A DNA stretch of 64,000 bases from Bacteroides caecimuris (GTDB lineage Bacteria; Bacteroidota; Bacteroidia; Bacteroidales; Bacteroidaceae): positions 1,488,001-1,552,000 of the forward strand of contig NZ_CP015401.2 of assembly GCF_001688725.2 (NCBI RefSeq), read 5' to 3'. The notes beneath the pieces are model-generated. The model was given only the letters and a program-made list of their open reading frames with translations. It did not search any database and was not told the DNA's origin. Every line of letters starts with the position of its first letter. Within the stretch, counting starts at the first letter, position 1. Below are positions 43,704 to 64,000 of the stretch, one piece after another. The position numbers and the translations under genes are program-made.

Positions 43704-44597
43704 ATGAGCATAACTATTAGAAATCTCAATAAGATATATCCAAACGGGAATCATGCATTGAAAAACATCAATCTGGAAATCCCTGCAGGGATGTTTGGTT
43801 TATTGGGACCCAACGGTGCCGGCAAATCTACTTTAATGCGTATCTTGGTTGCATTAATGGAGCCGACTTCCGGACAAGTCGAAATTTGTGGTTACGATTT
43901 GATGAAACAGCGAAAAGAAATCCGTGGTATATTGGGATATCTACCTCAAGATTTTCGTTTTTTCGCCAAATATAAAACGTATGAATTTCTGGACTATGCA
44001 GCTCGCTTGTCGGGAATGACTCAAAACAGACAACGAAAGCAGGCTGTAGATGAAATGCTTGAAAATGTGGGGTTGTTTGATGTCCGGGAACGATATGCCA
44101 ACAAATTATCAGGAGGTATGAAACGGCGGTTGGGAATTGCACAGGCATTGATACACCACCCCAAAGTAATCATCGTAGATGAACCTACTACCGGACTTGA
44201 TCCAGAGGAGCGCATCCGTTTCCGTAATCTTCTTTCTGAAGTTAGCGAGAATGACGTAACAATCATCTTATCTACTCATATTGTTGGGGATATTTCAAGT
44301 ACCTGTAATAATATGGCGTTGATGAATCGGGGAGAAGTCTCTTTCTATGGTTCCCCGCAAGATATGTTGAAGAAAGCCGAAGGTAAGGTATGGCGAATCA
44401 GGGCCGGTGGTGACCAATTGCATGAGATCGATAAAAAATATCCGGTCATATCTACTATTCCGTCGGGGGCAGCCTGGGAGGTACAGGTGGTTGCCGATAG
44501 TGTGGAGGGATACGAAGCAGAGCCATTTTCTCCTAATCTTGAACATGCTTATGTATATTATATGGAGAATCAATTGAACCTTTGGATGAACGACTAA
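43704..44597 (+). CDS. ABC transporter ATP-binding protein
   Basis: A 297-residue ATPase. It starts with strand one and A-loop tyrosine (ITIRNLNKIY, Tyr12). Walker A GPNGAGKST is at 35-43, the signature LSGGMKRR at about 135-142, Walker B VIIVDEPTTGLD at about 155-167 and the H-loop STHIV near 193. A ~75-residue C-terminal domain follows. It should energise the permease encoded 15 bp downstream. It is first in the seven-gene hybrid cluster, and its nucleotide-binding domain is clearly related to that fused to the RND protein at 53671 (shared AGMFGLLGPNGAGKSTLMRI-type block). Confidence 0.93.
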   Translation: MSITIRNLNKIYPNGNHALKNINLEIPAGMFGLLGPNGAGKSTLMRILVALMEPTSGQVEICGYDLMKQRKEIRGILGYLPQDFRFFAKYKTYEFLDYAARLSGMTQNRQRKQAVDEMLENVGLFDVRERYANKLSGGMKRRLGIAQALIHHPKVIIVDEPTTGLDPEERIRFRNLLSEVSENDVTIILSTHIVGDISSTCNNMALMNRGEVSFYGSPQDMLKKAEGKVWRIRAGGDQLHEIDKKYPVISTIPSGAAWEVQVVADSVEGYEAEPFSPNLEHAYVYYMENQLNLWMND

Positions 44598-44612: not shown

Positions 44613-47600
44613 ATGACCTTTTTATCTAATATACAATCGGTTGCAAAATATGAAAGTAAGTTATTAATAAGAAGTTGGTTCTTCAGAGTATTTACAGTAC
44701 TCGCCATAGGCATCACTACTCTTTTTAATTTTCTTTTATTTGTATCGGAGGACATTTCCGGTTTTTGGATTGCTACGTCTATTCCATCGAATATCCCTTA
44801 TTTAATCCTGTTGTTGTTGAATACAGGACAGGCTGTTATTGCTATCTTTCTAGCCTCCGATTTTCTGAAAAGAGATAAAAAACTAGATACATCGGAAGTC
44901 TTTTATGTCCGTCCGTTAAGTAATGCCGAATACGTTATTGGAAAGATCTGGGGAAACCTGCGTGTCTTCTTGTTGCTTAATCTCATTATAATGAGCATTA
45001 CTGTGGCATTTAATCTGACATCGGGAGAAGTGGACTGGATGGCTTATCTACTTTATTTTCTGTTGATTAGTGTACCTACTTTAATCTTTATCATCGGTTT
45101 ATCTATCTTTCTGATGTTGGTGTTGAAGAATCAGGCACTTACTTTCGTCCTATTGTTAGGGTATATCGGATTGACTGTATTCTATATTGAAGATAAGTTT
45201 TACTATCTCTTCGATTATATGGCTTACAGTCTCCCATTAATAAAGTCTACTATTGTCGGCTTTTCCAACTTGGAGGTGATTTTAAACCACCGGGCTATTT
45301 ACTTTTTTGCTGGGTTAGCGTTTGTCTTTTTCACAATCTTTTTGTTCCGGCGTCTACCTCACTCGTCACGCAGTAATTATCCATGGATATTTTTTTCTGT
45401 TTGTGCTCTTCTGTTGAGTTTTGCCTGTGGATATTGGCACGTACATTCGATATTGTATAAGAGCGATATACGGACAGTATATACACGTATTAATAACCAG
45501 TATGTTACTACTCCGAAGATGTGTATTCATCAATACGATTTTTCGATAGAACAACGTCCTGACAACTTTTTATCTGAAGTAACTATGAGAGGGGAGGCTC
45601 TGGACTCATCTGCCGTATTCACGTTCTGCCTGAATCCGGGATTAACCGTACGTTCTGTTCATTCAGGCGGACAATCTCTTCAATTTAAACGTGACAGGCA
45701 AATTGTGTTAGTAGATTTCGGTAGGGATCTGGCAAAAGGTGACACGGCTTCGGTGACATTTAAGTATGACGGGCGGATAGATCATTCGTTTTGTTATTTG
45801 GATATTCCTCCCGAAGTATTGCAAGCTTCGAAAAAGAAGTTTCTATTCAATATTGATAAGCAGTATAGTTTCCAGACGAAGGATTATCTGTTGCTTACTC
45901 CTGAAACATATTGGTATCCTCGTGCGGGGACGAGTTATAGTGATGAAAACCCGAATTGGCAACAAACTTATTTCAGTAATTATCATTTGAAGGTGAAACC
46001 TCTCGATGGATTGATTCCTCTTTCTCAAGGTGAGGGTAAGGGGGATGAACAGGGAACTTATACGTTTAAAGGGGATTTCCCGTCTCAAACCATATCGCTG
46101 GTTATTGGAGATTATCAGCAAAAAAGCGTATTGGCAGATAGTGTCTTGTATAGCATCTGGCACCTGAAAGGACATGACTTTTTTACAGCAGCCTTGGATT
46201 CTATTCACGATACTATTCCTTCACTGATACGTAATGTTAAAGACCAATTGGCACGAAATTATAAATTGGACTATCCTTTCAAACGGTTTTCGTTGATAGA
46301 AGTACCGATACAATTTGCCGGTTATGAGCGTGCCTGGTCGCAAGCACAAGAAACCATACAGCCTGAAATGGTCTTATTCCCAGAAAAAGGAGCGTTGTTT
46401 GATGAACTGGATGTAAAGAAACAGGTTCAAAATCACATACGATGGTCAAAATATGGAAATGGGAATGAAATCGGTATAAAAGAAGCGCAGATGCGTACAT
46501 TCAGCAATTTTGCCTGGATGTTTTTGCAAACAGAGGGGGATTATAATTTTTCATCAGATAGAGGAAAGGGTAATTTATCATCAGAATCAAATCCTTATTT
46601 CCTTTTTCCACAGATCTATAATTTTCGTTATAATATCTTCTCCTCAGAATGGCCGGTAGCCAACCGGGTGATTGAATTGTATTTGCAGAAGAAATCGGAG
46701 AATGAGGGATGGGAACGTCAGATTAATGGTATTAGTAATAATGAGAAGGCTATTCTGTTATTAGAAACGCGTACCTTTAAAGAACTATTGGCTGATGTCG
46801 AATTACGTAACCTGCAAAATAATATTGTCGGGCAGGAAGCAAGCCGCCTTTTTGCCCGGTCAGAAATAAATATGGGGGTAGAAGCTTTTAGAGATTCACT
46901 GTATTCGATGTTGAAACGTAATACCTTCCTGAATATAAAATTTGAGAATATGCTTGATACATTGGGGAAGATAAGCCGGACGGATATTCGTTCGTTGTTG
47001 GGAGAATGGGAAAAACCTACACCTCTTCCTTTTTACTCGTTGGGAGAACCTACATTGACTAAAATTGTCAACAAAGGTGGGGAAGAACTTTTTGTATTAA
47101 GAATGTTGGTAAGCAATAATTCGGATTACGAAGGGATTATTCACATGAATATTCGTAAGGATGGTTGGTGGAGTGATCCTTTGGAGGATCCCAGAGCCAG
47201 AATGAAAATAGAGATGCCCGCCCATACAACTAAAGAACTTGTTTCGGTTTGGGAAGACCAAATTCGTAACATTGAAATTAATACCATGCTTTCCGGCAAT
47301 CTACCTAATGTGATAAATCAGGAGATAGGTAATGTTAAGAATGAGCGGAACAGAATAGTTAAAGACAGTATTTATATATTGCCGGAATCGTCGTTCGAGC
47401 TGCCGGGAGAAGTTATTGTGGATAATGAAGATTCCACTCTTTTTGTTCTGTCTGCTCCTCCTATTATGGGGCTTCTGCCTAAGTGGCTGGATGAAGTCGA
47501 GGAGACACCTTTCAAATATTCAGGAATATCCTGGTGGCGTCCCCCTTTACAGTGGACGGCTACTACTAATAGTAAATATTATGGAAAATATATTCGCTCG

Positions 47601-47927
47601 GCTTTTGTGATAAAGAGTGGGGATGGCAGCCAGACTGCCACATGGAAAATTCCTGTACCGGAAGCCGGTCAATACGACTTGTATTACTATGTATTTAAAA
47701 ATGACGAACTCCGATGGAACAAGAATTTTCAGGGAGAATATCATTTTAAAGTACAGTACGACGGTGGAGCGGAAGATGCTTATATAAATTTAAGAAAAGC
47801 CAATGAAGGTTGGGAACAGCTGGGTAGCTATTACTTTGATTCTGATACTGTCCGGGTGGTTCTGACAGATGAATGTAAGCTGCGCTCTGTTACAGCCGAT
47901 GCGGTAAAAATAGTGAAACGATATTAA
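44613..47927 (+). CDS. ABC-2 permease fused to a peptidase-like and golvesin-like domain
   Basis: A 1104-residue protein in three parts. Residues ~15-285 have about seven membrane helices like ABC-2 permeases (SWFFRVFTVLAIGITTLF, WMAYLLYFLLISVP). Residues ~300-940 form a large extracytoplasmic region resembling M1-type aminopeptidases of Bacteroidetes permease fusions, but I see no HExxH zinc motif, so peptidase activity is doubtful. Residues ~975-1104 are a golvesin-like beta-sandwich (AGQYDLYYYVFKND ... SVTADAVKIV). It is the partner of the preceding ATPase. The big periplasmic part could bind substrate or contact the adaptor encoded downstream. Confidence 0.82.
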   Translation: MTFLSNIQSVAKYESKLLIRSWFFRVFTVLAIGITTLFNFLLFVSEDISGFWIATSIPSNIPYLILLLLNTGQAVIAIFLASDFLKRDKKLDTSEVFYVRPLSNAEYVIGKIWGNLRVFLLLNLIIMSITVAFNLTSGEVDWMAYLLYFLLISVPTLIFIIGLSIFLMLVLKNQALTFVLLLGYIGLTVFYIEDKFYYLFDYMAYSLPLIKSTIVGFSNLEVILNHRAIYFFAGLAFVFFTIFLFRRLPHSSRSNYPWIFFSVCALLLSFACGYWHVHSILYKSDIRTVYTRINNQYVTTPKMCIHQYDFSIEQRPDNFLSEVTMRGEALDSSAVFTFCLNPGLTVRSVHSGGQSLQFKRDRQIVLVDFGRDLAKGDTASVTFKYDGRIDHSFCYLDIPPEVLQASKKKFLFNIDKQYSFQTKDYLLLTPETYWYPRAGTSYSDENPNWQQTYFSNYHLKVKPLDGLIPLSQGEGKGDEQGTYTFKGDFPSQTISLVIGDYQQKSVLADSVLYSIWHLKGHDFFTAALDSIHDTIPSLIRNVKDQLARNYKLDYPFKRFSLIEVPIQFAGYERAWSQAQETIQPEMVLFPEKGALFDELDVKKQVQNHIRWSKYGNGNEIGIKEAQMRTFSNFAWMFLQTEGDYNFSSDRGKGNLSSESNPYFLFPQIYNFRYNIFSSEWPVANRVIELYLQKKSENEGWERQINGISNNEKAILLLETRTFKELLADVELRNLQNNIVGQEASRLFARSEINMGVEAFRDSLYSMLKRNTFLNIKFENMLDTLGKISRTDIRSLLGEWEKPTPLPFYSLGEPTLTKIVNKGGEELFVLRMLVSNNSDYEGIIHMNIRKDGWWSDPLEDPRARMKIEMPAHTTKELVSVWEDQIRNIEINTMLSGNLPNVINQEIGNVKNERNRIVKDSIYILPESSFELPGEVIVDNEDSTLFVLSAPPIMGLLPKWLDEVEETPFKYSGISWWRPPLQWTATTNSKYYGKYIRSAFVIKSGDGSQTATWKIPVPEAGQYDLYYYVFKNDELRWNKNFQGEYHFKVQYDGGAEDAYINLRKANEGWEQLGSYYFDSDTVRVVLTDECKLRSVTADAVKIVKRY

Positions 47928-47946: not shown

Positions 47947-49443
47947 ATGCAAAGTGACTTACTACTATTAAAAAGAATACTACTGACAATTGTTGTTGTC
48001 ATGGGGGTTACCTTGTCTTCACGAGGGCAAATACCCCTAACGATTGACAAAGCGATGGAGATTGCGCAGGAGAATAGTCCTTCTCTTCGCCGTTCTTATA
48101 TGAATTTGGAGAGGTACCAACAGAATTTAGTTGCACAGAAGGCTTCATTGAAATCACGATTCTCGTTGAATCTGAATCCGTTGGAGTATAACAAAAATAG
48201 GCGTTTCGACAACCGTCTGTCACAATGGTATACCAATGAGACGCTCAATAGCAGTGGCACTTTGCAAATAGAACAGCCTATTTTGTGGACAGACGGTACG
48301 ATTTCTTTAATCAACAAATTCGGGTGGCAAGATAATAACTCTATTTTGGAGGGCAATAAAACCAGTGACCGGGCATTCAGTAATGATCTCTATCTGCAAT
48401 TGACGCAACCTATTTTCACTTATAACAAGCGGAAGATGGAATTGAAGCAAATAGAGTATGATTATGAAAATGCCAATATTAGTTATGCTTTGCAGCGGTT
48501 GAATACAGAAAAAAGTATAACAGAACAGTTTTATGCGGTTTATATGGCACAAAGTAATTTGGAAATCAGCCGTGAAGAATTAAGTAACGCCCAGCAGAGT
48601 TATGATATCATAAAAAACAAGGTAGAAGCGGATTTGGCTGCTAAAGATGAGCTTTTTCAGGCAGAGCTGAATCTTGCAACGGCCCGTTCGTCGGTAGACG
48701 AGAGTCTGGTTAATATGGAGAACGCGAAAGATAAATTGAAACAAACGCTGGGAATGAGACTGGATGAGGAAATCCTGGTGCTTGCAGAGGTTGATATAAA
48801 ACCGATTCAGGTGGATTTAGAGCAAGCGATCACACATGGATTAGGTTCACGTTTGGAGTTGCGTCAACGTGAAATAGAAAGTAAGGAGCTTGAATTTGAA
48901 ATGATTAAAACGAAAGCGTTGAATGAGTTTAAAGGGGATGTTTCTTTGTCATTCGGTTTGATGGGAGATAATCGTCATTTGAACCAAATGTTTAGTAATC
49001 CGACACAGAATCCACGCGTTTCGATTAGTTTTACTGTTCCTATCTTCGATTGGGGTGAAAAGAAGGCACGAATCAAAGCGCAAAAGATGGCGCAACGGAT
49101 TAACGAACTGGAATTTCACGAGGAGAAGGTGGATATAGAACTGAATATTCGTCAGGTATGGCGTAATCTCGAAAATCTGCGGACACAGATAAAAATAGCC
49201 GAACAAAATGTGCAAAATGCCCAATTGACTTATGATCTGAACCAGACACGTTATCGGGAAGGTGATATTACCGGTATGGAAATGAGTCAGTTTCAAACGC
49301 AGCTTTCGAATAAAAAAATCACTTATACGCAAGCATTAATCAACTACAGAATAGAATTACTTAATCTTAAAATTCTTTCATTGTATGACTTCGATAAGAA
49401 TATTCCTATTGTTCCGATGAAAGATATAATTGATAAAAAATAA
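47947..49443 (+). CDS. TolC-family outer-membrane efflux channel
   Basis: A 498-residue protein with a signal peptide (LLTIVVVMGVTLSSRGQ) and the two-fold repeated helix-strand pattern of TolC proteins. The first half has LTIDKAMEIAQENSPSLRRSY, and the helical repeat QAELNLATARSSVDESLVNMENAKDKL lies around 235. It provides the outer-membrane exit duct of the cluster. The ABC permease gene ends 19 bp upstream and the adaptor gene follows by 7 bp. Confidence 0.93.
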   Translation: MQSDLLLLKRILLTIVVVMGVTLSSRGQIPLTIDKAMEIAQENSPSLRRSYMNLERYQQNLVAQKASLKSRFSLNLNPLEYNKNRRFDNRLSQWYTNETLNSSGTLQIEQPILWTDGTISLINKFGWQDNNSILEGNKTSDRAFSNDLYLQLTQPIFTYNKRKMELKQIEYDYENANISYALQRLNTEKSITEQFYAVYMAQSNLEISREELSNAQQSYDIIKNKVEADLAAKDELFQAELNLATARSSVDESLVNMENAKDKLKQTLGMRLDEEILVLAEVDIKPIQVDLEQAITHGLGSRLELRQREIESKELEFEMIKTKALNEFKGDVSLSFGLMGDNRHLNQMFSNPTQNPRVSISFTVPIFDWGEKKARIKAQKMAQRINELEFHEEKVDIELNIRQVWRNLENLRTQIKIAEQNVQNAQLTYDLNQTRYREGDITGMEMSQFQTQLSNKKITYTQALINYRIELLNLKILSLYDFDKNIPIVPMKDIIDKK

Positions 49444-49450
49444 GCAGGCC

Positions 49451-50512
49451 ATGAAACAGTATCACATTTTAATTGCATCTTCTTTATTAGTGATTATAGC
49501 ATTGACAAGTTGTGGTGGAAGACCACAAAATGCCCCCAATAACATTGCTACTCCGGTATCTGTCGTTGAATTGAAGAAAGGGTCGATCAGTAAATTGATA
49601 AATACAACAGGAACGGTGCAGCCCACTTATGGGGTGTCTTTAAACGCTGAAATGAATGGCTTTTATAAGCTTCAGACTAACCCGAAAACCGGAAAACCCT
49701 TTAAGATGGGTGACAGGGTGAATAAGGGAACTCTGATTATTCAATTGGAAGACAGAGAATATGAGAATGGCATTGCTATTGACGCCAAACAGTTAAGTCT
49801 TGAAATAGCTGAACAGGAACAATCGAAGCAAAAGGCGCTTTATGAAAAAGGAGGAGTGACGATGAGCGAAATGCGGAACACGGAAGTTAAGGTGACGAAT
49901 GCCCGTTATGATTACGAAAATGCTCAGCTCAGCCTGGAAAAAATGAAAGTAAAAGCTCCGTTTGATGGAGTGATTGTTGATTTGCCGCATTATACAAATG
50001 ATATAAGAGTGGAACAAGGTAAAACGATGGTAAGTCTGATGGCTTATGACAAAATGTATATGGATATCAATCTGCCGGAAAGTAGTATTCGTTATATTAA
50101 AGAAGCGCAACCGGTGTATATTACTCACTATACCATACCCGGTGATACTTTGAAGGGGAAAATAAGTGAATTATCTCCCGCAATCAGTTCGGAGACACGT
50201 ACCTTTAAAGGAAAAGTGCTGGTTGATAACACTCAATTAAAATTGCGTCCGGGTATGTTTGCTAAAGCGGATATTGTGGTGGACAGAGCTGATAGTTCTA
50301 TTATTATCCCTAAAGACGTGATTTTATCGAACCGTCGGCGCAAATATGTATATATCGTTGAAAAGAATACTGCAAAGATACGTAATTTGGAGACTGGGTT
50401 GGAAGATGAATATAACATTGAAATTGTGTCCGGGCTTAATGTAAATGATAATCTGGTAGTGAAGGGTTTTGAAACATTGAAAGAAGATGCTAAAGTGAAA
50501 ATTCAAAAGTAA
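49451..50512 (+). CDS. Periplasmic adaptor lipoprotein of the RND/ABC pump
   Basis: A 353-residue membrane fusion protein. ATG 49451 is preferred over 49430 because it gives a clean lipoprotein leader, IIALTSCGG, right after the signal sequence. It has the lipoyl/barrel-sandwich segments (VSLNAEMNGFYKL, KAPFDGVIVDLPHY), an alpha-hairpin (around 115-150) and a beta-barrel domain with LRPGMFAKADIVVD. It links the inner-membrane pumps to the TolC channel. Confidence 0.92.
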   Translation: MKQYHILIASSLLVIIALTSCGGRPQNAPNNIATPVSVVELKKGSISKLINTTGTVQPTYGVSLNAEMNGFYKLQTNPKTGKPFKMGDRVNKGTLIIQLEDREYENGIAIDAKQLSLEIAEQEQSKQKALYEKGGVTMSEMRNTEVKVTNARYDYENAQLSLEKMKVKAPFDGVIVDLPHYTNDIRVEQGKTMVSLMAYDKMYMDINLPESSIRYIKEAQPVYITHYTIPGDTLKGKISELSPAISSETRTFKGKVLVDNTQLKLRPGMFAKADIVVDRADSSIIIPKDVILSNRRRKYVYIVEKNTAKIRNLETGLEDEYNIEIVSGLNVNDNLVVKGFETLKEDAKVKIQK

Positions 50513-50560: not shown

Positions 50561-53500
50561 ATGAAGAATATAATCAAATTTGCAGTAGGCAATCCGGTTA
50601 CGATTTGTATGATTGTATTTGCCCTCTTATTACTGGGAAAGGTATCATACGATCAGTTGAGTGTCGACTTATTGCCTGATCTGAATAATCCCCGATTGTT
50701 TATCGAATTGAAGGCGGGAGAACGTCCTCCTGAAGAGATTGAAAAACAATTTGTGAAAAATATGGAATCTATGGTCATCCGGCAGAGTGACGTTACGCAA
50801 GTCTCTTCGGTGATTAAAGCGGGGACGGCACGAATTACCGTAGAATATACTTGGACAAAGGATATGGATGAGGCTTTTCTCGATTTGCAGAAAGCTATGA
50901 ATCCGTTTGCACAGAACAAGGAGATTACTGAATTAAAAATTACGCAGCACGATGCGAATCTGTCACCGGTTGTCCTGATAGGTATGTCCCATCAGAATAT
51001 TACGGATATGGCAGAGCTGCGGAAGATTGCAGACAGTTATATTCGTAATGAGTTGATTCGTCTGGAAGGGGTTGCCGATGTAACTCTTTCAGGTGAGGAA
51101 GTGACTACTCTTACTGTTCAGACCGACCCTTACAAATTAGGTGCTTTCCAATTAAAGATTGAAGACATTGCTTCACGTATTGAATCTAATAATCAGAGTA
51201 TATCCGGAGGACGGGTAAGCGAGTTGGGGTTGCAATATCTAGTGAAAAGTTCGAGCCTGTTTTCTACAGAAGCCGATTTTGAAAACCTGATCGTTGGATA
51301 TAAACCGGTGCAACAGCAGGAGACTTCCGGGAATAGTTCTTCAGAAACAGTGATAGATGTAAATAAGGCTCCTATCTTCCTGAAAGAAATAGCGACTGTG
51401 CAATTTATGAACGCTCGTCCTGAGAATATTGTACGTATTAACGGGAAGCGCAGTATCGGTTTGTCTATTTACAAGGAAATGCGTTTTAATACAGTGAAAG
51501 TGGTAGATGAAGTAAGTAAACGGTTGGCGGTGATAGAGGATGCTTTACCTGGCTATCATTTTCAGGTCATTTCCAATCAGGGAACATTTATAAAAAATGC
51601 CATTGGAGAAGTGAAAAGCAGTGCTGTATTGGGGATTGTTCTTGCCATCATCGTATTGTTTGTCTTTCTTCGTCGAATGGGAACAACGCTGATTGTCAGT
51701 CTTTCTATCCCGATTTCTATTGTGGCAACTTTCAATTTGATGTTTTTCAACGGACTTACATTGAATATAATGACTTTGGGTGGATTGGCTCTTGGGGCGG
51801 GTATGCTGGTGGATAATGCTATTGTAGTCATAGAAAGTATTTTTCGGAATCAGGAAAAAGGAATGAGTGTCCATCAGGCTGTTATTACTGGAACTGCGGA
51901 AGTGGCGAATGCGGTCATTGCTTCTACATTGACGACTATTGTTGTTTTTCTCCCGATTGTTTATCTGCATGGAGCTTCGGGCGAATTATTTAAGGATCAG
52001 GCATGGACAGTAACTTTCTCACTTGTGTCCTCTTTGTTTGTGGCTATTCTGGTGATTCCGATGTTGTATGTTCAACTCTCCGGTAAGAAAGTGAAAATGG
52101 AAGAGGTGAAATCAATTCGTATTACAAGATATAGCAAGATACTTCGCAAATTGGTTCAGCACCGTTGGTGGGTGATTGGGGTGGCGGTGTTGCTGCTCGT
52201 TGTAACAGGGTTGTTGACTCCATTCATTGGAACAGAATTCATGCCACGGGCAGAAAGCAAAGTTTTTACTGCCGTTGTGAAAATGCCCGAAGGTACGCCA
52301 ATGGAGCGTACTGCGGCCGCTATCGGCAATCTCGAAGATCTATTGTATACTATTGTTGGAGGTGATTCTCTGTGTACGTTGTATAGCCATATCGGAGAAG
52401 GAAGCGGTTCGGTAAATGCTATATTTGAAGGAGAGAATACTGCGATGATGAAAGTTATTCTTTCGCCCGAATGTATTCTTTCGCCCGAAAGAGTTATTGC
52501 CCAGTTTATTGAAGAGGCAAAGAATCCCGACGGTCTGGAACTGTCTATACGGCAGGACGAAAACTCTTTGAGTTCGCTTTTAGGAAGCGAAGGGGCACCA
52601 ATCGTTGTAGAAGTGAAAGGGGAGGAACTGGACGAGGTAGCGCAGATTACTGAAGAGGTAAAAGAGCGGATGCTTAGGGTTGAAGGATTGTATGATGTCG
52701 TTACCTCCATAGAAGACGGTGCTCCGGAAGTGGTGATTTCGATAGATCGTACCATAGCCGGTATAAATAATTTGAGTGTCGCTACGGTAATTGAACAGTT
52801 AAAACAGCAATTAAGTGGCAAAGAGGTTGGTAAAATGGAATATCGTGGCGAGATGCGTGATATTGTGATAAAAGTGCCGGATATATCGCTGGGATCCCTT
52901 GGAGCACTTGTCATTAGAAGCGGTGCTCAGGAATTTCTGTTGCATGAGATTGCTACTATTACTTATGGACAGGCACCTAAAGAAATTTTACGCCGTAATC
53001 AGAGTCGTATAAGTAAAATAATGGCTAACATGGATGCTGGAAAATCTCTTGATAAAATGGCTGCGGAAGTACGTCTGGCGGTTAAGGATATTGATTTACC
53101 TGCTAATTATCATATCACAGTGACCGGAGAAGAGGAAAAAAGGCAGGAATCTATGCACAGTTTGTTGTTTGCTTTGTTACTCTCTGTTGTACTTGTTTAT
53201 ATGGTAATGGCTTCACAGTTTGAATCATTGTTGCACCCTTTTACCATTCTACTGACTATTCCGTTGGCGGTGGTAGGTGCTGTCCTGCTTTTCTTTATTA
53301 CCGGAACAACCATTAATATGATGGGAGTTATCGGCATCGTGATGTTGGGAGGTATTGCTGTTAACAATTCTATTATTTTGGTAGACCGTATCAACCAGCT
53401 TAGTCAGGCAGGAATGGAACTGACTGATGCTATTGTAGAAGCAGGACAACAACGTATCCGTCCTATCATCATGACCACATTGACAACGATTCTGGCTATG

Positions 53501-53659
53501 TTTCCGATGACATTCGGTTTTGGTGAAGGTGCTTCTCTTCGTTCGCCGATGGCCATTGCCGTTATTGGAGGATTGATAACTTCTACTTTGATGAGTTTGA
53601 TGGTTATCCCATGTGTATACTATGTCCTTGAAAAAATGAAAAGGCGTATCAATCATTGA
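50561..53659 (+). CDS. RND efflux permease
   Basis: A 1032-residue RND transporter with twelve membrane segments and two large periplasmic loops. Membrane segment 4 has LVDNAIVVIES (Asp418-Asn419) and segment 10 NNSIILVDRIN (Asn935-Asn936, Asp942). It therefore lacks the Lys of AcrB segment 10, as in SwrC-type RND pumps, where the acidic residue pattern is shifted. It is followed 11 bp later by a second RND protein, so the two may form a mixed trimer like MdtBC. It has no fused ATPase. Confidence 0.93.
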   Translation: MKNIIKFAVGNPVTICMIVFALLLLGKVSYDQLSVDLLPDLNNPRLFIELKAGERPPEEIEKQFVKNMESMVIRQSDVTQVSSVIKAGTARITVEYTWTKDMDEAFLDLQKAMNPFAQNKEITELKITQHDANLSPVVLIGMSHQNITDMAELRKIADSYIRNELIRLEGVADVTLSGEEVTTLTVQTDPYKLGAFQLKIEDIASRIESNNQSISGGRVSELGLQYLVKSSSLFSTEADFENLIVGYKPVQQQETSGNSSSETVIDVNKAPIFLKEIATVQFMNARPENIVRINGKRSIGLSIYKEMRFNTVKVVDEVSKRLAVIEDALPGYHFQVISNQGTFIKNAIGEVKSSAVLGIVLAIIVLFVFLRRMGTTLIVSLSIPISIVATFNLMFFNGLTLNIMTLGGLALGAGMLVDNAIVVIESIFRNQEKGMSVHQAVITGTAEVANAVIASTLTTIVVFLPIVYLHGASGELFKDQAWTVTFSLVSSLFVAILVIPMLYVQLSGKKVKMEEVKSIRITRYSKILRKLVQHRWWVIGVAVLLLVVTGLLTPFIGTEFMPRAESKVFTAVVKMPEGTPMERTAAAIGNLEDLLYTIVGGDSLCTLYSHIGEGSGSVNAIFEGENTAMMKVILSPECILSPERVIAQFIEEAKNPDGLELSIRQDENSLSSLLGSEGAPIVVEVKGEELDEVAQITEEVKERMLRVEGLYDVVTSIEDGAPEVVISIDRTIAGINNLSVATVIEQLKQQLSGKEVGKMEYRGEMRDIVIKVPDISLGSLGALVIRSGAQEFLLHEIATITYGQAPKEILRRNQSRISKIMANMDAGKSLDKMAAEVRLAVKDIDLPANYHITVTGEEEKRQESMHSLLFALLLSVVLVYMVMASQFESLLHPFTILLTIPLAVVGAVLLFFITGTTINMMGVIGIVMLGGIAVNNSIILVDRINQLSQAGMELTDAIVEAGQQRIRPIIMTTLTTILAMFPMTFGFGEGASLRSPMAIAVIGGLITSTLMSLMVIPCVYYVLEKMKRRINH

Positions 53660-53670
53660 ACTAAAAAAGG

Positions 53671-56600
53671 TTGAAGATGAATTTTTTACTAAATAAGAGA
53701 ATTACAATTTGTATGCTGTTTATAGCCCTTAGCCTTTTGGGCTATATGTCCTATAAACAGCTTCCGGTAGAGTTGTTACCTAATGCAGAGCTTCCGGTAC
53801 TGTTTATCCAAGTGTCATCACAGCAGGATATGGATCCTTCGTATGTAGAGTCGGAAGTGATTATTCCACTTGAAGGAGCGGTCAATACAATTGGTGGAGT
53901 AGACAAATTGCAATCTTATATAGACAGGAGACAGTCGAGCATACAAATTGATTTTAAGAAGAATATCAACTTTAAGATGGTCTCTCTTAAATTGCAGGAA
54001 AAGGTAAATGAAGTGGCAGCTTCTTTTCCTACTGGTTTTACCGTGCAGGTGCAGAAAGTCGACATTGCGCAGATGAACAATAACTTTATGGTACTTCAGG
54101 TACGTGGTCTGGGAAGAACAGACCGCATCAGGAATCTAGTGGAGGATTATATTCTTCCCGATCTGGAGAACATAGACGGTGTAGCGTCTGTCAATATATA
54201 TGGAGGACGGCAAAAAGCGATTGAAATACGTCTTAATCCGGAAGCGTGTAAGGCACTGAACCTTACACCGTCCAAGATAAGCAATCTGCTTTCACAGAAC
54301 ACACAGGAAAAAACATTTGTCGGTTTTGCCAATGAACCGGACAGTAAGAATTTTGTCCATGTCAATGCGATGTATACCAAAGTATCTGACTTGGAAAATA
54401 TAGTGGTGGCTCCCGGACCTGTTCTGTTGAAAGATGTGGCGACTGTATTTTTTGATTTGAAAGATGAAACTACTTATAGTCGTGTTAATGGAAAGGAGGC
54501 TGTCTCTGTAGCATTGATAAATGATTCGCAGGCCAATTTGATTGAACTTTCTCATCGTGTCTCTGATGCGATTGACAAGCTGAATGAAAAACTGGTGCCA
54601 CTTGATCTGGAAATTGTTACTCAAGAGAATAAAGCTGAAACCATGGAGAATAATATTAATCAGATCATTAACCTGGCATTGGTGGGTGGGCTGTTGGCTG
54701 TTCTTATCCTCTGGTTCTTTCTGAAAAATATGCGGTTGGTATTCTTTATCGCACTTTCAATTCCGATTTCAGTCTATACAGCTTTCAATTTCTTCTATGC
54801 TTCCGGTATTACTATCAATAGTCTTACATTAGTTGGGATGGCACTTGCTATCGGGATGTTGCTGGATAATAGTGTCGTGGTGCTTGAGAATATTTATCGT
54901 TTATCCGGGAGCGGTTGTACACCCGAACGTTCGGTTACTCAGGGGACTAAAGAGGTGTGGCGTTCCATTGTGGCAGCTACGCTGACCACGGTCACTGTAT
55001 TTTTGCCATTTGTTTTTTCTGATAATTTTCTGATTAAACTGGTCGGACATCATATCGGGGTATCTATTATATCCACATTGACCATCTCTTTGTTTGTGGC
55101 TTTACTTTTCATTCCGATGGTCACTTATGTTATTCTGAAAAAGAAGAAAGGGAGAAGTGTTGTTTATGAGAAGGTCTCTATCATTCAACGTCCGATACAG
55201 ATTTATCTGGTTTTGCTAAAGACTTGTATGCGTAATCCGGGAGTTACTATATTCGGAGCGGTGATTTTGCTTTTTGTAACTTTGATATTGTCGCTGACCT
55301 TGAATGTACAGCAGATGAAAGCGGTTGATTCGGACCGATTTAATATAAGTGTTGTGATGCCTACCGGAAGTACCCTTGAGAATACAGACAAGATAGTCAA
55401 AGTGCTGGAAGAACGTCTGACAGATTTTCCTGAAAAGAAAGACTTGATCTGCCGTGTTCGGGAGAAAGAGGCAACTATTACCCTTATTTTGCAAAAAGAT
55501 TATCAGAAGATAGGCAAACGGAAAATAGCAGATATTAAATCAGATGTACAATCCAAGGTTTCTAATATCAATGGAGCGGAAATCTATGTCTCCTATGCTA
55601 TGGGAGGAGGGCAGGAGAATTCAGCTTTGAGCAGCCTCGGAGGTTTTATGCGTTTATTGGGTATCGGTGATAATAGAGAACGAGTAGTAGTCAGAGGAGC
55701 CGATTTCGAAATGATGCAGATGGTAGCAGAGGAAATACGCTATTTGTTGAATGAGCAGGAATTTGTACAACACACTCATGTCTCGTATACTCCTCGTCAA
55801 GCGGAAATAAATCTGAATTTTGATCCGGTTTTATTGACTACTTATGACATCAATCGTGCTAATATTACCTCTGGATTAACAGCGCTCAATAATGAGTATT
55901 CTTCGGAAGTGACTTTTAAAGTAGGAGAAGATAAATATGACATTATCATCCGCGATGAAATTCGGGAAGAAGAGACGGAAGAAGAAATACAGGAGAAAGC
56001 GCATAAAGAGAAAACGGTAGACGACCTGCGTGCTATTCGGATAGAAAATGAGAAAGGAGGGATGCACAATCTGGAAGATATAGCATCTATTAATTATGGT
56101 CGTGGACGTTCGCGGATCATACGTGTCAATCAGGATAAACAGCTCGAAGTATATTATAATTTCTCAAGAGATGTGCAATCCTCGAAAGAGTTGTTGGATA
56201 GTTATCGTTCTGATATAGACCAGCTGATTGCCGGTTATAATCTCCCATCCGGTGTTGCTTTACAAGTATTCCATGAAGAAGATCAGTTTGGGGATTTCAA
56301 ATTTCTTATTCTAGCAGCTTTCATCTTGATTTTTATGATACTTGCTTCTGTATTCGAGTCTGTGGTAACTCCTTTTGTATTGCTCTTTACGATTCCGTTG
56401 GCTGCTATCGGCTCTTTATTGGCGTTGTTACTTTCGGGCAATAGCTTGATGAATGCAAATACGCTGACCGGATTTTTGATTTTGTTAGGGGTAGTTGTCA
56501 ATAACGGAATTATTTTGATAGACTATGCCAACATTTTACGTAAAAGGGGATATCGACGGAACCGGGCATTAATGGTTGCCGGTATGTCACGTATTCGTCC

Positions 56601-58404
56601 GATTTTGATTACTTCAATAACGACCATTGCTGCTATGCTTCCGTTGGCTATGGGAGATACGGAGTATGCTGGAGCTATTGGTGCTCCTTTTGCTATTACA
56701 ATGATTGGTGGGCTTCTCTTCTCTGCTTTATTAACGTTGATTTTAATTCCTACAGTTTGTCTGGGATTAGAAAATGTGCTTCAGTGGTATCGTTCGTTGT
56801 CTCGTAAGTTATGGTTCTTCCATTTTATTCTTTTCGTGTTCGGTGTCATCGGTATTTGGTTATATGCTGAAGGAATACTTTGGCAATCAATTTATCTTGT
56901 TGCACTTATTGCAGGTATACCGGGACTGACTTATTTTGCACAGACTAGCCTTAGAAGGGCAAAATCGAAAGTGATAGATCCGGATGAAGATATACATATA
57001 TCTGTTAGGAATCTGGTTAAAATATACGACTGGCCAGGGCGCATCAGCCGACAGTGGTATAGCGGTTTGCAAATACGTAAACGGTTGGGATTGAGTAATG
57101 AATATCATTCTCTGAAGGATTTTGTTAATGTGTTGTGGCAGTTCGGCATATTGCTATTCGGTATTTATTTCACTTATTTTTTTATTCAGGACAGGCTTTG
57201 GATATTCTTGTTTTCATTTGCTATTTATGCTTCGGTTCTGTATCTGTGGAGAAAGATACGTTCTTACTTGTATTATCGTTACGAAAACAGTAGAAGAGTG
57301 AAGATAATAAACCGTGTGATATTCTGGGGACTTCCTCCTGTAATCTTGTTCGAGTTATTCAAGAAGATGGATAATAACGGCTTGGTTATCATGATCGCAT
57401 TACTATGGTTTATGGGTATTGCTATCTATGTCACCTCTCAATATTTATATGACCATCATATAAATATTGAGCGTGTCACCGGGCGATTTGCCGGACTTCG
57501 CCGTTCCTATTTCCGTATGGTGAAGAGTGTTCCTTTGATTGGGAAACAACGTAAGCCTTTTAAAGCATTACGTGGAGTATCATTTGAGATTCAGACAGGT
57601 ATGTTCGGACTCTTGGGACCCAATGGAGCTGGAAAATCTACTTTGATGCGTATTATATGTGGTATATTTGAGCAAAGTTACGGCAGTATCTGGATAAATG
57701 GAATGGATACCCGTGTCTATAGGGAAGAACTGCAAAGCCTGATAGGATTCCTGCCACAGGAATTTGGAACTTATGAGAATATGACATCATGGGAATTTCT
57801 TGATTATCAGGCTATACTAAAAGGTCTGATAAATGAAAATATACGAAAAGAAAGGTTGGAGTATGTTTTGAAAGCAGTACACATGTACGAGCGAAAAGAT
57901 GAAAATATCGGCTCTTTCTCAGGAGGTATGAAACAAAGAATCGGTATTGCATTGATTTTGCTTCACTTACCACGTATTCTGGTAGTAGATGAGCCTACTG
58001 CAGGACTCGATCCCCGTGAGCGTATTCGTTTTCGTAATCTGTTGGTAGAATTGAGTAAGGATCGTGTGGTCATTTTCTCCACTCATATCATTGAAGATAT
58101 ATCCAGCTCTTGTAATCAAGTGGTGGTCATAAATAAGGGTGAATTGAAATATTTCGGTGATCCTGCGGATATGGTGGAAATGGCTAATGGAAAAGTATGG
58201 CAATTTAATATAGATAAGACGGAGTTTGAAAAGGTGTTGGATAAGTCTTTGGTAATACATCATATTCAGCAGGGTGACACTATTCGTGTCCGCTATCTTT
58301 CTGTTGAACAGCCGTATGATGGAGCCGAGGAGGTGGAGGCCAATCTGGAAGATGCTTATCTCTGCTTGTTGAAAAATATGAATGATAAGAAAAAAAAGAT
58401 ATGA
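53671..58404 (+). CDS. RND permease fused to an ABC ATPase (split nucleotide-binding domain)
   Basis: A 1577-residue open frame. Residues 1-1030 are a full RND permease (segment 4 LLDNSVVVLEN with Asp399, segment 10 VVNNGIILIDYAN with Asp951). Then come two membrane helices (about 1048-1090) and the ABC-type first strand and A-loop ISVRNLVKIYDW (1110-1121, Tyr1119). A ~175-residue block with about four helices (1155-1193, 1216-1260) follows, and only then Walker A GPNGAGKST (1316-1324), signature FSGGMKQR (1416-1423), Walker B ILVVDEP (1436-1442) and H-loop His1472. All ATPase residues are intact. The frame has no break. It overlaps the final ABC-2 permease gene by 4 bp (ATGA). This predicts ATP hydrolysis coupled to an RND pump. 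Confidence 0.9.
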   Translation: MKMNFLLNKRITICMLFIALSLLGYMSYKQLPVELLPNAELPVLFIQVSSQQDMDPSYVESEVIIPLEGAVNTIGGVDKLQSYIDRRQSSIQIDFKKNINFKMVSLKLQEKVNEVAASFPTGFTVQVQKVDIAQMNNNFMVLQVRGLGRTDRIRNLVEDYILPDLENIDGVASVNIYGGRQKAIEIRLNPEACKALNLTPSKISNLLSQNTQEKTFVGFANEPDSKNFVHVNAMYTKVSDLENIVVAPGPVLLKDVATVFFDLKDETTYSRVNGKEAVSVALINDSQANLIELSHRVSDAIDKLNEKLVPLDLEIVTQENKAETMENNINQIINLALVGGLLAVLILWFFLKNMRLVFFIALSIPISVYTAFNFFYASGITINSLTLVGMALAIGMLLDNSVVVLENIYRLSGSGCTPERSVTQGTKEVWRSIVAATLTTVTVFLPFVFSDNFLIKLVGHHIGVSIISTLTISLFVALLFIPMVTYVILKKKKGRSVVYEKVSIIQRPIQIYLVLLKTCMRNPGVTIFGAVILLFVTLILSLTLNVQQMKAVDSDRFNISVVMPTGSTLENTDKIVKVLEERLTDFPEKKDLICRVREKEATITLILQKDYQKIGKRKIADIKSDVQSKVSNINGAEIYVSYAMGGGQENSALSSLGGFMRLLGIGDNRERVVVRGADFEMMQMVAEEIRYLLNEQEFVQHTHVSYTPRQAEINLNFDPVLLTTYDINRANITSGLTALNNEYSSEVTFKVGEDKYDIIIRDEIREEETEEEIQEKAHKEKTVDDLRAIRIENEKGGMHNLEDIASINYGRGRSRIIRVNQDKQLEVYYNFSRDVQSSKELLDSYRSDIDQLIAGYNLPSGVALQVFHEEDQFGDFKFLILAAFILIFMILASVFESVVTPFVLLFTIPLAAIGSLLALLLSGNSLMNANTLTGFLILLGVVVNNGIILIDYANILRKRGYRRNRALMVAGMSRIRPILITSITTIAAMLPLAMGDTEYAGAIGAPFAITMIGGLLFSALLTLILIPTVCLGLENVLQWYRSLSRKLWFFHFILFVFGVIGIWLYAEGILWQSIYLVALIAGIPGLTYFAQTSLRRAKSKVIDPDEDIHISVRNLVKIYDWPGRISRQWYSGLQIRKRLGLSNEYHSLKDFVNVLWQFGILLFGIYFTYFFIQDRLWIFLFSFAIYASVLYLWRKIRSYLYYRYENSRRVKIINRVIFWGLPPVILFELFKKMDNNGLVIMIALLWFMGIAIYVTSQYLYDHHINIERVTGRFAGLRRSYFRMVKSVPLIGKQRKPFKALRGVSFEIQTGMFGLLGPNGAGKSTLMRIICGIFEQSYGSIWINGMDTRVYREELQSLIGFLPQEFGTYENMTSWEFLDYQAILKGLINENIRKERLEYVLKAVHMYERKDENIGSFSGGMKQRIGIALILLHLPRILVVDEPTAGLDPRERIRFRNLLVELSKDRVVIFSTHIIEDISSSCNQVVVINKGELKYFGDPADMVEMANGKVWQFNIDKTEFEKVLDKSLVIHHIQQGDTIRVRYLSVEQPYDGAEEVEANLEDAYLCLLKNMNDKKKKI

Positions 58405-59114
58405 CATTTAATCAATTAATAAAGCTATTGCCCAAGTTGGTGAAATATAATTTGAAGATTATTTTTGCCGGAAAGTTCTTTTGGTTCCTGTTGGCGGCAT
58501 TTGGATTCTTTGCTTTTTTTATGTTTCAGAATGCATGGAACCGGGCAGAGATCAATGAAGGGCTTATCTATAATATCTTAATGTTTCCGTGTTTATTGCT
58601 GATATTTTATCCGGCTGTTTTCGGTATTCAGAACGATGAAGACAGCCGGATTTTGGAGATCCTTTTTGGTATTCCCAACTATAGGTATAAGGTTTGGGGA
58701 GTACGGTTACTCATGATTTATATAGCTGTTTTTGCTATTTTAATCATTTTCTCATACATCGCTATCTTACTGCTTTATCCGATCAATCCTCTTGAGATGT
58801 CTTTGCAGTTAATGTTTCCGGTTCTCTTTTTTGGTAGTATGACCTTTATGTTTTCTACTATTACCCGGAGTGGAAACGGAACGGCAGTACTTGTGATTGT
58901 TATCGGTATTGCATTGATGTTTTTTAGTAATATGAATAGTATCGAACATTCTTTTTGGAATATTCTGTTGAATCCATTTCGCGTACCTGACAATTTTCAT
59001 CCGATGATTTGGGAAGGAATCCTTATCAAAAATCGTATCTTCCTTTTTTCTGCCAGTCTAATCTGGATGATGATCGGTTTACTTAATCTGCAAAAGCGAG
59101 AGAAATTCGTATGA
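58401..59114 (+). CDS. ABC-2-type permease subunit
   Basis: A 237-residue membrane protein with six helices (e.g. FFWFLLAAFGFFAFFMF at about 27-43, LLMIYIAVFAILIIFSYIAI at about 103-122, VLVIVIGIALMFF near 163-175). The layout is that of ABC-2 permeases, including a short N-terminal amphipathic helix (LIKLLPKLVKYNLK). It starts inside the stop of the RND-ABC fusion (ATGA) and so is co-translated with it. It is the obvious membrane partner for the fused ATPase. It is convergent with the patatin gene, whose stop lies 29 bp away. Confidence 0.83.
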   Translation: MTFNQLIKLLPKLVKYNLKIIFAGKFFWFLLAAFGFFAFFMFQNAWNRAEINEGLIYNILMFPCLLLIFYPAVFGIQNDEDSRILEILFGIPNYRYKVWGVRLLMIYIAVFAILIIFSYIAILLLYPINPLEMSLQLMFPVLFFGSMTFMFSTITRSGNGTAVLVIVIGIALMFFSNMNSIEHSFWNILLNPFRVPDNFHPMIWEGILIKNRIFLFSASLIWMMIGLLNLQKREKFV

Positions 59115-61630: not shown

Positions 61631-62887
61631 ATGAGATTATTCTTTTCGAAAAATGAGTTGAAACTGAGGAGAAAGAGAACCATTGCTGCTATTATGTGTA
61701 TGGTAATTGTGTTGGGTATGTATTGGATACTGACCCGGCCTCAGAAGGTTGCGCCGGAAATGCCGACAGTCATTGTTGAACCGGTAGTGAAAGACGACGT
61801 AGAGATATATGGGGAATATGTGGGGCGTATTCGTGCCCAACAGTTCGTCGAAGTACGTGCCCGTGTGGAAGGTTATCTGGAAAATATGCTTTTTGCCGAA
61901 GGTACATATGTCAATAAGAATCAGGTTTTGTTTGTAATCAACCAGGACCAGTATCGTGCCAAAGCAGATAAAGCTAGGGCGCAATTGAAAAAAGACGAGG
62001 CACAGGCTTTGAAAGCGGAACGTGATTTAAAGCGTATCCGTCCGTTGTTTGAGCAGAATGCTGCAAGCCAGTTGGACTTGGATAATGCGGAAGCTGCTTA
62101 TGAAAGTGCCGAGGCAACAGTAGCCATGAGCGAGGCGGATTTGGCACAGGCTGAACTGGAATTGGGGTATACCATTGTTCGTTCGCCCTTATCGGGACAC
62201 ATTAGTGAAAGAAATGTGGACTTGGGTACGTTAGTAGGTCCCGGAGGAAAATCATTGCTTGCTACTATTGTGAAAAGTGATACAGTGTTGGTGGATTTCA
62301 GTATGACAGCACTCGATTATCTGAAGAGTAAAGAACGAAACATTAATTTGGGGCTGCAGGATCCCACTCGTTCTTGGCAACCGAATATTACCATTACATT
62401 GGCAGATAATACCGTTTATCCGTTCAAGGGATATGTGGATTTTGCCGAACCGCAGGTAGATCCTCAAACCGGAACTTTCTCTGTACGTGCAGAAATGCCG
62501 AACCCCAAACAAGTATTGTTGCCCGGACAATTTACAAAAGTAAAATTATTGCTGGATGTTCGTGAGGGTGCACTAGTTGTTCCGATGAAAGCCGTTACCA
62601 TTGAAAAAGGTGGAGCATATATTTATACCATGCGCAAAGATAATACGGTAGAGAAACGTTTTATCGAGTTAGGACCGGAAGTCGGGAATAATGTGGTGGT
62701 AGAACGAGGGCTGGCAGAAGGAGAAATGGTGGTTGCAGAAGGCTTCCATAAGTTGACTCCGGGCATGAAAGTACGGGTCAGCGAACCGAAAACCGAAGCT
62801 GGAGACAGTATTATTACGACAAAAAATGAAGTGACCGGAGTAAAAGAAAACATTGCCGGAACGAAGGATAACGTGAAAGGAGAATAA
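61631..62887 (+). CDS. RND efflux periplasmic adaptor subunit (AcrA-like)
   Basis: A 418-residue membrane fusion protein. A short basic N-terminus is followed by a single hydrophobic segment (IAAIMCMVIVLGMYWIL, about residues 19-35), acting as an anchor. The lipoyl halves (VRARVEGYLENMLFAEG and YTIVRSPLSGHI), a long alpha-hairpin with repeated Ala/Glu (about 110-175) and the barrel segment LPGQFTKVKLLLD are clear. The tail is long and charged. It is followed 3 bp later by an AcrB-type permease. It belongs to a normal HAE1-type multidrug pump separate from the hybrid cluster. Confidence 0.93.
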   Translation: MRLFFSKNELKLRRKRTIAAIMCMVIVLGMYWILTRPQKVAPEMPTVIVEPVVKDDVEIYGEYVGRIRAQQFVEVRARVEGYLENMLFAEGTYVNKNQVLFVINQDQYRAKADKARAQLKKDEAQALKAERDLKRIRPLFEQNAASQLDLDNAEAAYESAEATVAMSEADLAQAELELGYTIVRSPLSGHISERNVDLGTLVGPGGKSLLATIVKSDTVLVDFSMTALDYLKSKERNINLGLQDPTRSWQPNITITLADNTVYPFKGYVDFAEPQVDPQTGTFSVRAEMPNPKQVLLPGQFTKVKLLLDVREGALVVPMKAVTIEKGGAYIYTMRKDNTVEKRFIELGPEVGNNVVVERGLAEGEMVVAEGFHKLTPGMKVRVSEPKTEAGDSIITTKNEVTGVKENIAGTKDNVKGE

Positions 62888-62890
62888 ACG

Positions 62891-64000
62891 ATGAAAGTTA
62901 CTTTTTTTATAGATAGGCCGGTCTTCTCGGCTGTAATCTCCATCGTGATTGTGATTGTCGGTGTGATTGGTCTGACAATGCTTCCGGTGGACCAATATCC
63001 GCAGATTACACCCCCGGTGGTGAAGATCAGTGCTTCCTATCCGGGTGCCAGCGCACTTACCGTGTCGCAGGCGGTAGCCACTCCAATTGAGCAGGAAATC
63101 AATGGTACGCCGGGTATGCTTTATATGGAATCAAATAGTTCTAACTCCGGAGGTTTTTCGGCAACAGTAACTTTTGATGTATCTGCCGATCCGGACTTGG
63201 CAGCCGTTGAGATTCAAAACCGTGTGAAACTGGCGGAATCCCGTCTGCCGGCGGAAGTCATTCAGAATGGTATTTCGGTAGAAAAACAGGCTCCCAGTCA
63301 GTTGATGACGCTTTGTTTGACTTCTACTGATCCGAAGTTCGACGAAATTTATTTGAGTAACTTTGCTACTATCAATGTGCTTGATGTGATTCGCCGTATT
63401 CCGGGGGTTGGACGTGTGTCGAACATCGGTAGCCGTTACTATGCGATGCAGATATGGGCGCAGCCCGATAAACTGGCAAACTTCGGGTTGACTGTGCAGG
63501 ATTTGCAGAATGCCTTGAAAGACCAGAACCGTGAATCGGCAGCCGGTGTATTGGGACAGCAGCCGGTGCAGGGGTTGGATATAACGATTCCTATTACGAC
63601 TCAAGGACGTTTGTCTACCGTGGGGCAGTTTGAAGATATCGTAGTGCGTGCCAATGCCAACGGGTCTATCATCCGGTTGAAAGACGTGGCGCGTGTATCG
63701 TTAGAGGCCTCTTCTTATAATACGGAGAGTGGTATCAACGGTGAGAATGCTGCTGTGCTTGGCATTTATATGCTGCCGGGAGCAAATGCGATGGAAGTGG
63801 CCGAGAGGGTAAAAGAGGCTATGGATGAAATTAGTAAGAATTTCCCGGAAGGATTGAGTTATGAGATTCCGTTCGATATGACGACTTATATTTCCGAATC
63901 TATACATGAAGTATATAAGACGTTGTTTGAAGCGTTGGTATTGGTTGTGTTGGTGGTTTATCTATCCTTGCAGAGCTGGCGTGCGACGTTGATTCCGGTA
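62891..64000 (+). CDS. AcrB-type RND efflux permease (3' end beyond window)
   Basis: The frame opens at ATG 62891 (MKVTFFIDRPVFSAVISIVI), 3 bp after the adaptor, and is still open at the window end: 370 codons seen. The first membrane segment (about residues 10-28) and the porter-domain signatures VDQYPQITPPVVKISASYPG and IPGVGRVSNIGSRYYAMQIW mark it as an HAE1-family multidrug exporter. The visible part reaches the second membrane segment (LVLVVLVVYLSLQSWRATLIP). The proton-relay residues lie outside the window. Confidence 0.95.
   Translation, partial: MKVTFFIDRPVFSAVISIVIVIVGVIGLTMLPVDQYPQITPPVVKISASYPGASALTVSQAVATPIEQEINGTPGMLYMESNSSNSGGFSATVTFDVSADPDLAAVEIQNRVKLAESRLPAEVIQNGISVEKQAPSQLMTLCLTSTDPKFDEIYLSNFATINVLDVIRRIPGVGRVSNIGSRYYAMQIWAQPDKLANFGLTVQDLQNALKDQNRESAAGVLGQQPVQGLDITIPITTQGRLSTVGQFEDIVVRANANGSIIRLKDVARVSLEASSYNTESGINGENAAVLGIYMLPGANAMEVAERVKEAMDEISKNFPEGLSYEIPFDMTTYISESIHEVYKTLFEALVLVVLVVYLSLQSWRATLIPV

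Follow-up and report, generated by a model that had tools for sequence, protein, structure and literature searches.

An RND permease continued in frame by an ABC ATPase, encoded within a conserved seven-gene locus of Bacteroides caecimuris and distant relatives

Within a 64,000-nucleotide stretch of the Bacteroides caecimuris genome (NCBI RefSeq assembly GCF_001688725.2, contig NZ_CP015401.2, positions 1,488,001 to 1,552,000 of the forward strand; termed here the window), a single gene (53671..58404, + strand) encodes a resistance-nodulation-division (RND) permease that is continued, in the same frame, by an ATP-binding cassette (ABC) ATPase. Sequence profiles and a predicted structure make it nearly certain that in this fusion a whole RND permease leads, by way of two membrane helices, into a whole ABC ATPase. 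Textbooks separate secondary RND pumps from primary ABC transporters; a widespread and constrained fusion of the two makes the coupling of ATP and proton energy within one machine directly testable. Full-text searches of an open-access library, directed at an RND::ABC fusion, found no description of one, which agrees with an earlier reading of this DNA from its sequence alone (the sequence-only reading), to which no such system was known. Because the NCBI and JGI pipelines already label the fused proteins with an RND name, an ABC name or both, the family hides in plain sight; the fusion seems to be a genuine, perhaps undescribed, two-engine export machine.

The frame is free of stops throughout, with 1577 codons counted from a TTG at 53671 and 1575 from an ATG at 53677. 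The ATG is probably the true start: an AAAGG lies a few bases 5' of it, the TTG is less well placed, and the first residues read from the ATG (MNFLL) match the start of a homologue (L031). Residue numbers of the fusion's parts are counted here from this ATG unless TTG numbering is stated. Pfam finds ACR_tran (PF00873) at residues 3-1029 (E = 2.4e-159), covering the model in full length (positions 2-1016 of 1021), and ABC_tran (PF00005) at residues 1300-1444 (E = 3.4e-26; both in TTG numbering). The single open frame and the two domains bear out the sequence-only reading's description of one 1577-residue protein with a complete RND permease at residues 1-1030. In a PDB sequence search the RND half (residues 1-1029; 53677..56763, +) matches MdtB best, with MdtF a near second. 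Past RND transmembrane helix (TM) 12, hydropathy over 52 sequences and an AlphaFold2 (AF2) model place two additional transmembrane helices at residues 1043-1096 (56803..56964, +).

A protein search with the region 1030-1577 matched 4997 of 7999 scored candidates, the unlisted ones of which may include other long ABC proteins; among the 120 matches listed, every one has both Pfam domains. Conserved residues were counted in 109 of 120 listed distant homologues (termed here the distant fusions; the 11 left out include those outside 1450-1700 residues) and in 44 of 50 fusion loci inspected with 10-kb flanks, five cut fusions and a split one (L085) being left out.

Behind the membrane linker, the sequence-only reading had placed an ABC ATPase with intact Walker A, signature, Walker B and H-loop motifs. 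The linker and all four motifs are present, as are a Q-loop and an A-loop tyrosine; what that reading missed is that the ABC domain is split, its first beta strand and adenine-binding tyrosine standing before, and the rest of it after, a stretch of about 175 residues with four membrane helices. According to the AF2 model and its structural alignment to whole nucleotide-binding domains (NBDs), the first strand ends in the A-loop tyrosine Y1117 (ISVRNLVKIY; 56998..57027, +). Hydropathy and the model put the four helices at residues 1146-1259, between beta 1 and beta 2 (57112..57453, +). The remainder of the domain, including its C-terminal part, is delimited by Pfam and by motifs (57559..58401, +): Walker A at 57616-57642, the Q-loop at 57757-57759, the signature at 57913-57939, Walker B (VVDE) at 57982-57993 and the H-loop at 58084-58086, all on the + strand. 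The predicted fold is that of a complete NBD. These five motifs (with the catalytic glutamate in Walker B) recur in 109/109 distant fusions, as does the A-loop tyrosine; the spacing from A-loop to Walker A, which is 196 in the fusion but 22 in the operon's unfused ABC, is likewise long (180-278) in all 109. By profile, the ATPase lies nearest to the GldA and DrrA models, under the cut-offs of both (GldA model TIGR03522: 177.1 bits against a curated cut-off of 402.6). The fusion shows, in a natural protein, an ABC ATPase domain that membrane helices interrupt directly after the adenine-binding strand.

The fusion is patchy within its genus yet wide outside it. In genome samples whose counts include the window's own genome, it occurs in 11/149 genomes of the genus, in 23/301 of the family and, as a protein of about 1560-1600 residues, in 52/393 of the order (33/206 genera); matches covering the linker occur in 6/395 genomes of the phylum sample. 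At 44 of the 52 places in the order sample (own genome included) there is an open frame of more than 1500 residues; the other eight reach contig edges (three observed, five inferred from coordinates near a contig start). Carriers include Bacteroides faecis, B. faecichinchillae, Parabacteroides massiliensis, Prolixibacter bellariivorans, Marinifilum fragile, Carboxylicivirga linearis, Flavilitoribacter nigricans and Marivirga sericea. The sequence-only reading looked to Bacteroidota for homologues covering both halves; full-length fusions exist, and they are not confined to that phylum but extend to several distant ones. They occur in metagenome-assembled genomes (MAGs) of KSB1, Latescibacterota and Krumholzibacteriia, under Calditrichaeota, Acidobacteria and Gemmatimonadetes names, and in an Aminicenantes genome; in identity to the window's fusion the Krumholzibacteriia copy (L075) stands at about 50%, like Bacteroidota copies, and a MAG's name can be wrong. 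Within the phylum of an Acidobacteria MAG, 15/199 genomes match: 13 with a one-frame fusion, one with two contig pieces and one cut before the ABC part. In a plasmid collection 11 records match, none of them spanning 80% of the query. A 1324-residue frame (G344/L036) with an ABC match and without an RND match was rejected as a further fusion.

Quick trees, with rows chosen by hand, were made for each half. In the RND-part tree (56 rows), the 27 fusions make up one side of a branch (Shimodaira-Hasegawa-like approximate likelihood ratio support, SH-aLRT, 98) and the 20 operon RND permeases one side of another (99); in the ABC-part tree (50 rows), the 26 fusions make up one side of a branch (99), and the 11 unfused operon ABCs do not (4 changes). 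These sequence trees fit one fusion event for both halves; the fusion may be either old or spread later by transfer. Against two relatives (L045 and L046, respectively), the ratio of nonsynonymous to synonymous divergence (dN/dS) is 0.055 and 0.105 for the junction with its two linking helices, 0.044 and 0.046 for the RND part, 0.075 and 0.032 for the insert, and 0.030 and 0.026 for the NBD, ratios that are rough because dS is high (0.95-2.27). For four more distant relatives dS is mostly saturated, the single junction ratio being 0.142 (L050, dS 2.50). By these comparisons the junction looks to be under constraint.

The RND half retains one of the two aspartates that carry the proton relay in AcrB. 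Aligned to AcrB, D407 corresponds to D397, D408 to N398, K940 to N942, R971 to R972 and T978 to T979; the half thus lacks AcrB's second aspartate and its lysine. At the D407 position an aspartate is found in 44/44 fusions and 109/109 distant fusions; the D408 position is without one in 44/44 (N in 40, S in 3, T in 1) and is N in 109/109; the K940 position is N in all 44 and all 109; and R971 and T978 equivalents occur in 44/44, the R971 equivalent also in 108/109. The adjoining unfused RND permeases, counted at 41 of the 50 loci, are alike (D407-position D in 41/41, N at D408 in 40/41, N at K940 in 40/41). PMC5719797 gives GX3DX6E as the TM4 aspartate motif of the family, describes D408 as less conserved, many members having one acidic residue alone, holds that lysine loss likely goes together with D408 loss, a charge-balanced change, and reports that MexB is inactivated by D407N or D408N. 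Because, by that account, D408 and K940 are not a general family requirement, membership of the fusion in the hydrophobe/amphiphile efflux (HAE), AcrB-type group stands. A control RND permease from the same genome (L131) also has a neutral pair (D/S in TM4, N in TM10), and no ABC gene was recognised in the 19 kb around it (locus L142); together with PMC5719797, this control rules out taking the lost D408 and K940 equivalents as proof of a proton-uncoupled RND half. Since a charge-balanced, single-aspartate relay is kept, the RND half is, to judge from its residues, probably proton-driven rather than dead.

The sequence-only reading dealt with one protein, and what escaped it is the conserved locus in which that protein is encoded. 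On the + strand of the window, the fusion is preceded by a separate, unfused ABC ATPase of 297 residues (43704..44597), which is the first gene in 5/5 divergent loci; by a 1104-residue protein that combines an ABC-2 permease-like portion, a sizeable additional part and a C-terminal Golvesin_C domain (44613..47927; Pfam places ABC2_membrane_2 under and Golvesin_C over the cut-off); by a TolC-family outer membrane channel recognised by profile (47947..49443); by a periplasmic adaptor (49430..50512; HlyD_D23, with RND_mfp above its cut-off); and by a second, unfused RND permease of 1032 residues, recognised by Pfam and conserved upstream of the fusion (50561..53659). It is followed by a 237-residue ABC-2-type permease (58401..59114), the ATG of which overlaps the fusion's stop and the predicted fold of which aligns best to NosY, ABCG, ABCH and ABCA proteins. 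This order of seven genes recurs in 5/5 divergent genomes, each with the adaptor and, as in MdtBC-type systems, two dissimilar RND genes next to each other. Across the 50 loci, the flanks of which mostly leave the first genes of the operon outside, an unbroken fusion stands between the RND and ABC-2 permeases at 40, at 38 of which TolC and the adaptor are recognised as well; the ABC-2 permease directly follows the fusion at 46, including L085, where the same order surrounds a split fusion. Five Acidobacteriota loci (L168-L172) all have the fusion, the second RND permease and the ABC-2/Golvesin-like protein, with a separate ABC recognised in four and an adaptor in three.

Four kinds of known systems resemble parts of this one. 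The known ABC-2 (type V) systems, NosDFY, PmtCD and CcmAB, have a small ATPase that is a protein of its own; here too a separate permease is predicted to have the NosY/PmtCD fold and is encoded with an ATPase, but the ATPase forms the C-terminal end of an RND permease and has membrane helices within its first hairpin. Like MacAB-TolC, the locus would, from its genes, provide ATP-driven tripartite export with an adaptor and TolC; unlike MacB, which has an N-terminal NBD and a MacB-type permease, the fusion has its NBD C-terminal to an RND permease, the neighbouring permease aligns to NosY, ABCG, ABCH and ABCA proteins, and no MacB-type domain is among the Pfam matches of the fusion or the 237-residue protein. 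MdtABC/MuxABC (E. coli MdtB2C) share the adaptor and the two unlike, adjoining RND permeases, MdtB being also the best PDB match; in the alignment the fusion differs from MdtB at the D408 and K940 positions, and MdtABC/MuxABC are not known to have an ABC domain or ABC-2 permeases. Finally, MMPL/lipoprotein plus ABC operons in Porphyromonas and Prevotella (PG1175-PG1181 and PIOMA14_I_0908-0914) combine an RND-superfamily (MMPL) gene with ABC ATPase genes, but as separate proteins, with MMPL not of the HAE type and with TolC and adaptor unnamed in the part of PMC10434189 that describes them. We regard the fusion as a variant of tripartite RND pumps; were one machine shown to draw on both energy sources, it would be categorically new.

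The reading favoured here, which we give about an even chance, is that an ATP-driven ABC-2 exporter has been built into a two-RND tripartite pump, with ATP used at the inner membrane and the proton force for export through TolC. The fusion would be one component of a trans-envelope exporter encoded by seven genes; a pair of its ATPase domains would power the neighbouring ABC-2 permease, itself a dimer, to flip or extract an amphiphilic substrate across the inner membrane; from the periplasmic side, the RND protomers joined to these ATPases would then, with the second RND permease, the adaptor and TolC, carry the substrate outward by proton force; and the covalent fusion would keep the ATP and proton steps together. 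The 237-residue, NosY-like permease would, judged by adjacency, be the natural partner of the fusion's ATPase. MdtBC acts as B2C according to PMC12802153 and PMC4338810; by analogy, an MdtBC-like trimer in which two protomers are fused and the third is not would bring just the two ATPase domains that an ABC-2 dimer needs, a stoichiometry that is speculation. The full picture, of one polypeptide with two working engines, a 2:1 RND heterotrimer with two ATPases clamped on an ABC-2 dimer, and dual-energy transport from cytoplasm to outside, is offered tentatively, at clearly less than even probability.

Several observations weigh against this mechanism, which is drawn entirely from sequence and predicted structure, the AF2 model being a single chain (residues 989-1575) and hence without interfaces. 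Ten of the 50 loci lack the unbroken RND-fusion-ABC-2 order: six cut by contig ends, the split L085, and L049, L090 and L091. Among these, no ABC-2 permease follows the fusion in L049 and L091 (KSB1), and L090 (KSB1) lacks the second RND permease, adaptor and TolC on its 14-kb contig. In the Acidobacteriota loci L168-L172, the ABC-2 permease is recognised in 3/5 and TolC in 0/5; six unassigned frames in three of them (L168, L169, L171) matched no ABC-2, TolC or adaptor family in Pfam, and around a sixth Acidobacteriota fusion (L174) no further member of the gene set was recognised. Foldseek E-values for the 237-residue permease are weak (best 0.05, none <0.001), and among 42 of its orthologues Pfam finds ABC-2 families in 2, 1 and 1 members (at most 4/42; E 0.0006-0.021).

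Alternatively, in line with the gating that the sequence-only reading suggested, the ATPase may act on the RND trimer itself, ATP binding and hydrolysis pushing or gating protomers through the extra helices by a MacB-type mechanotransmission, with the ABC-2 permease an accessory. The two linking and four inserted helices, which tie the ATPase covalently to the transmembrane domain of the RND half, would suit such a role, as would the conserved A-loop to Walker A spacing, the relay without D408 and K940 equivalents and the at least two loci without a recognised ABC-2 permease. Yet the neutral pair also occurs in L131, with no ABC recognised nearby, PMC5719797 treats such residue loss as charge-balanced, and an ABC-2 permease stands next to the fusion at 46/50 loci; we consider gating unlikely. 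Because the ABC-2 gene adjoins the fusion, ATP driving the ABC-2 permease is, in our view, more likely than ATP gating the RND trimer.

An equally improbable account makes the fusion a mere tether or expression device, which would set the stoichiometry and co-assembly of an ordinary ABC-2 exporter and an ordinary RND pump acting independently, or has it cut after translation. L085 (a MAG) speaks for this account: its RND part of 1136 residues is followed by 215 nt with a palindromic repeat, and then by an ABC frame of 483 residues that is complete and begins just before beta 1. This is the only stop or frameshift between residues 1030 and 1110, an event that the sequence-only reading had taken as refuting the fusion, among the 50 loci, 43 of which are complete in one frame (six are cut by contig ends); the fused state is thus far commoner (43/44 uncut loci). 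The trees, which fit one origin, and the seemingly constrained junction also speak against a mere tether. So does a search for stand-alone ABC+insert proteins, which gave 44 matches among 376 candidates: the ten with inspected N-termini all begin, as fragments would, inside the RND portion, in a linking helix, in beta 1 or in the insert. The L085 repeat (L085:5578-5680) is dispersed, with 25 matches in that genome (a count that includes this site and the repeat's second arm). Some short ABC+insert proteins (P0123, P0127, P0158 and P0159 among others), which begin in the linking helices, in beta 1 or in the insert and a number of which lie on 13-35 kb contigs, may be fragments, mispredicted starts or natural splits.

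That the fusion arose from faulty assembly or annotation, or is a gene in decay, is scarcely credible, an artefact being rejected for the family given the many intact copies in independent assemblies and the apparently constrained junction. Broken copies in 2/11 genus carriers (L178 and L179) speak for such a reading, but their breaks begin near residue 833 and lie outside 1030-1110. Both copies share the frame change near residue 833 and stops further on, the fusion being broken again after residue 1220; therefore the system can decay.

Some minor features of the window and its genome complete the description. The 1104-residue protein presumably resembles M1 aminopeptidase-type ABC proteins; the motif HEXXH is absent in 7/7 orthologues scanned, and neither this protein nor the 237-residue permease gave a match in a PDB sequence search. 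A scan for promoters and terminators gave nothing clearly above shuffled sequences. After an opposite-strand gene, which we take to be patatin-like, another adaptor and RND permease (L125) occupy 61631-64000 on the same strand as the fusion. Elsewhere in the genome, two equal-scoring sets of RND matches (G000:C1:2217825-2225961 and 2453956-2462092) occur; in L142, which contains the second, the genes run adaptor-RND-TolC-RND and no ABC gene was recognised, and this ABC-free, two-RND system, of which one copy was inspected, seems to be duplicated. Before the operon, 33-nt arms at 43004-43036 and 43128-43160, 91% complementary and 91 nt apart, form an inverted repeat suggestive of a small mobile or palindromic element.
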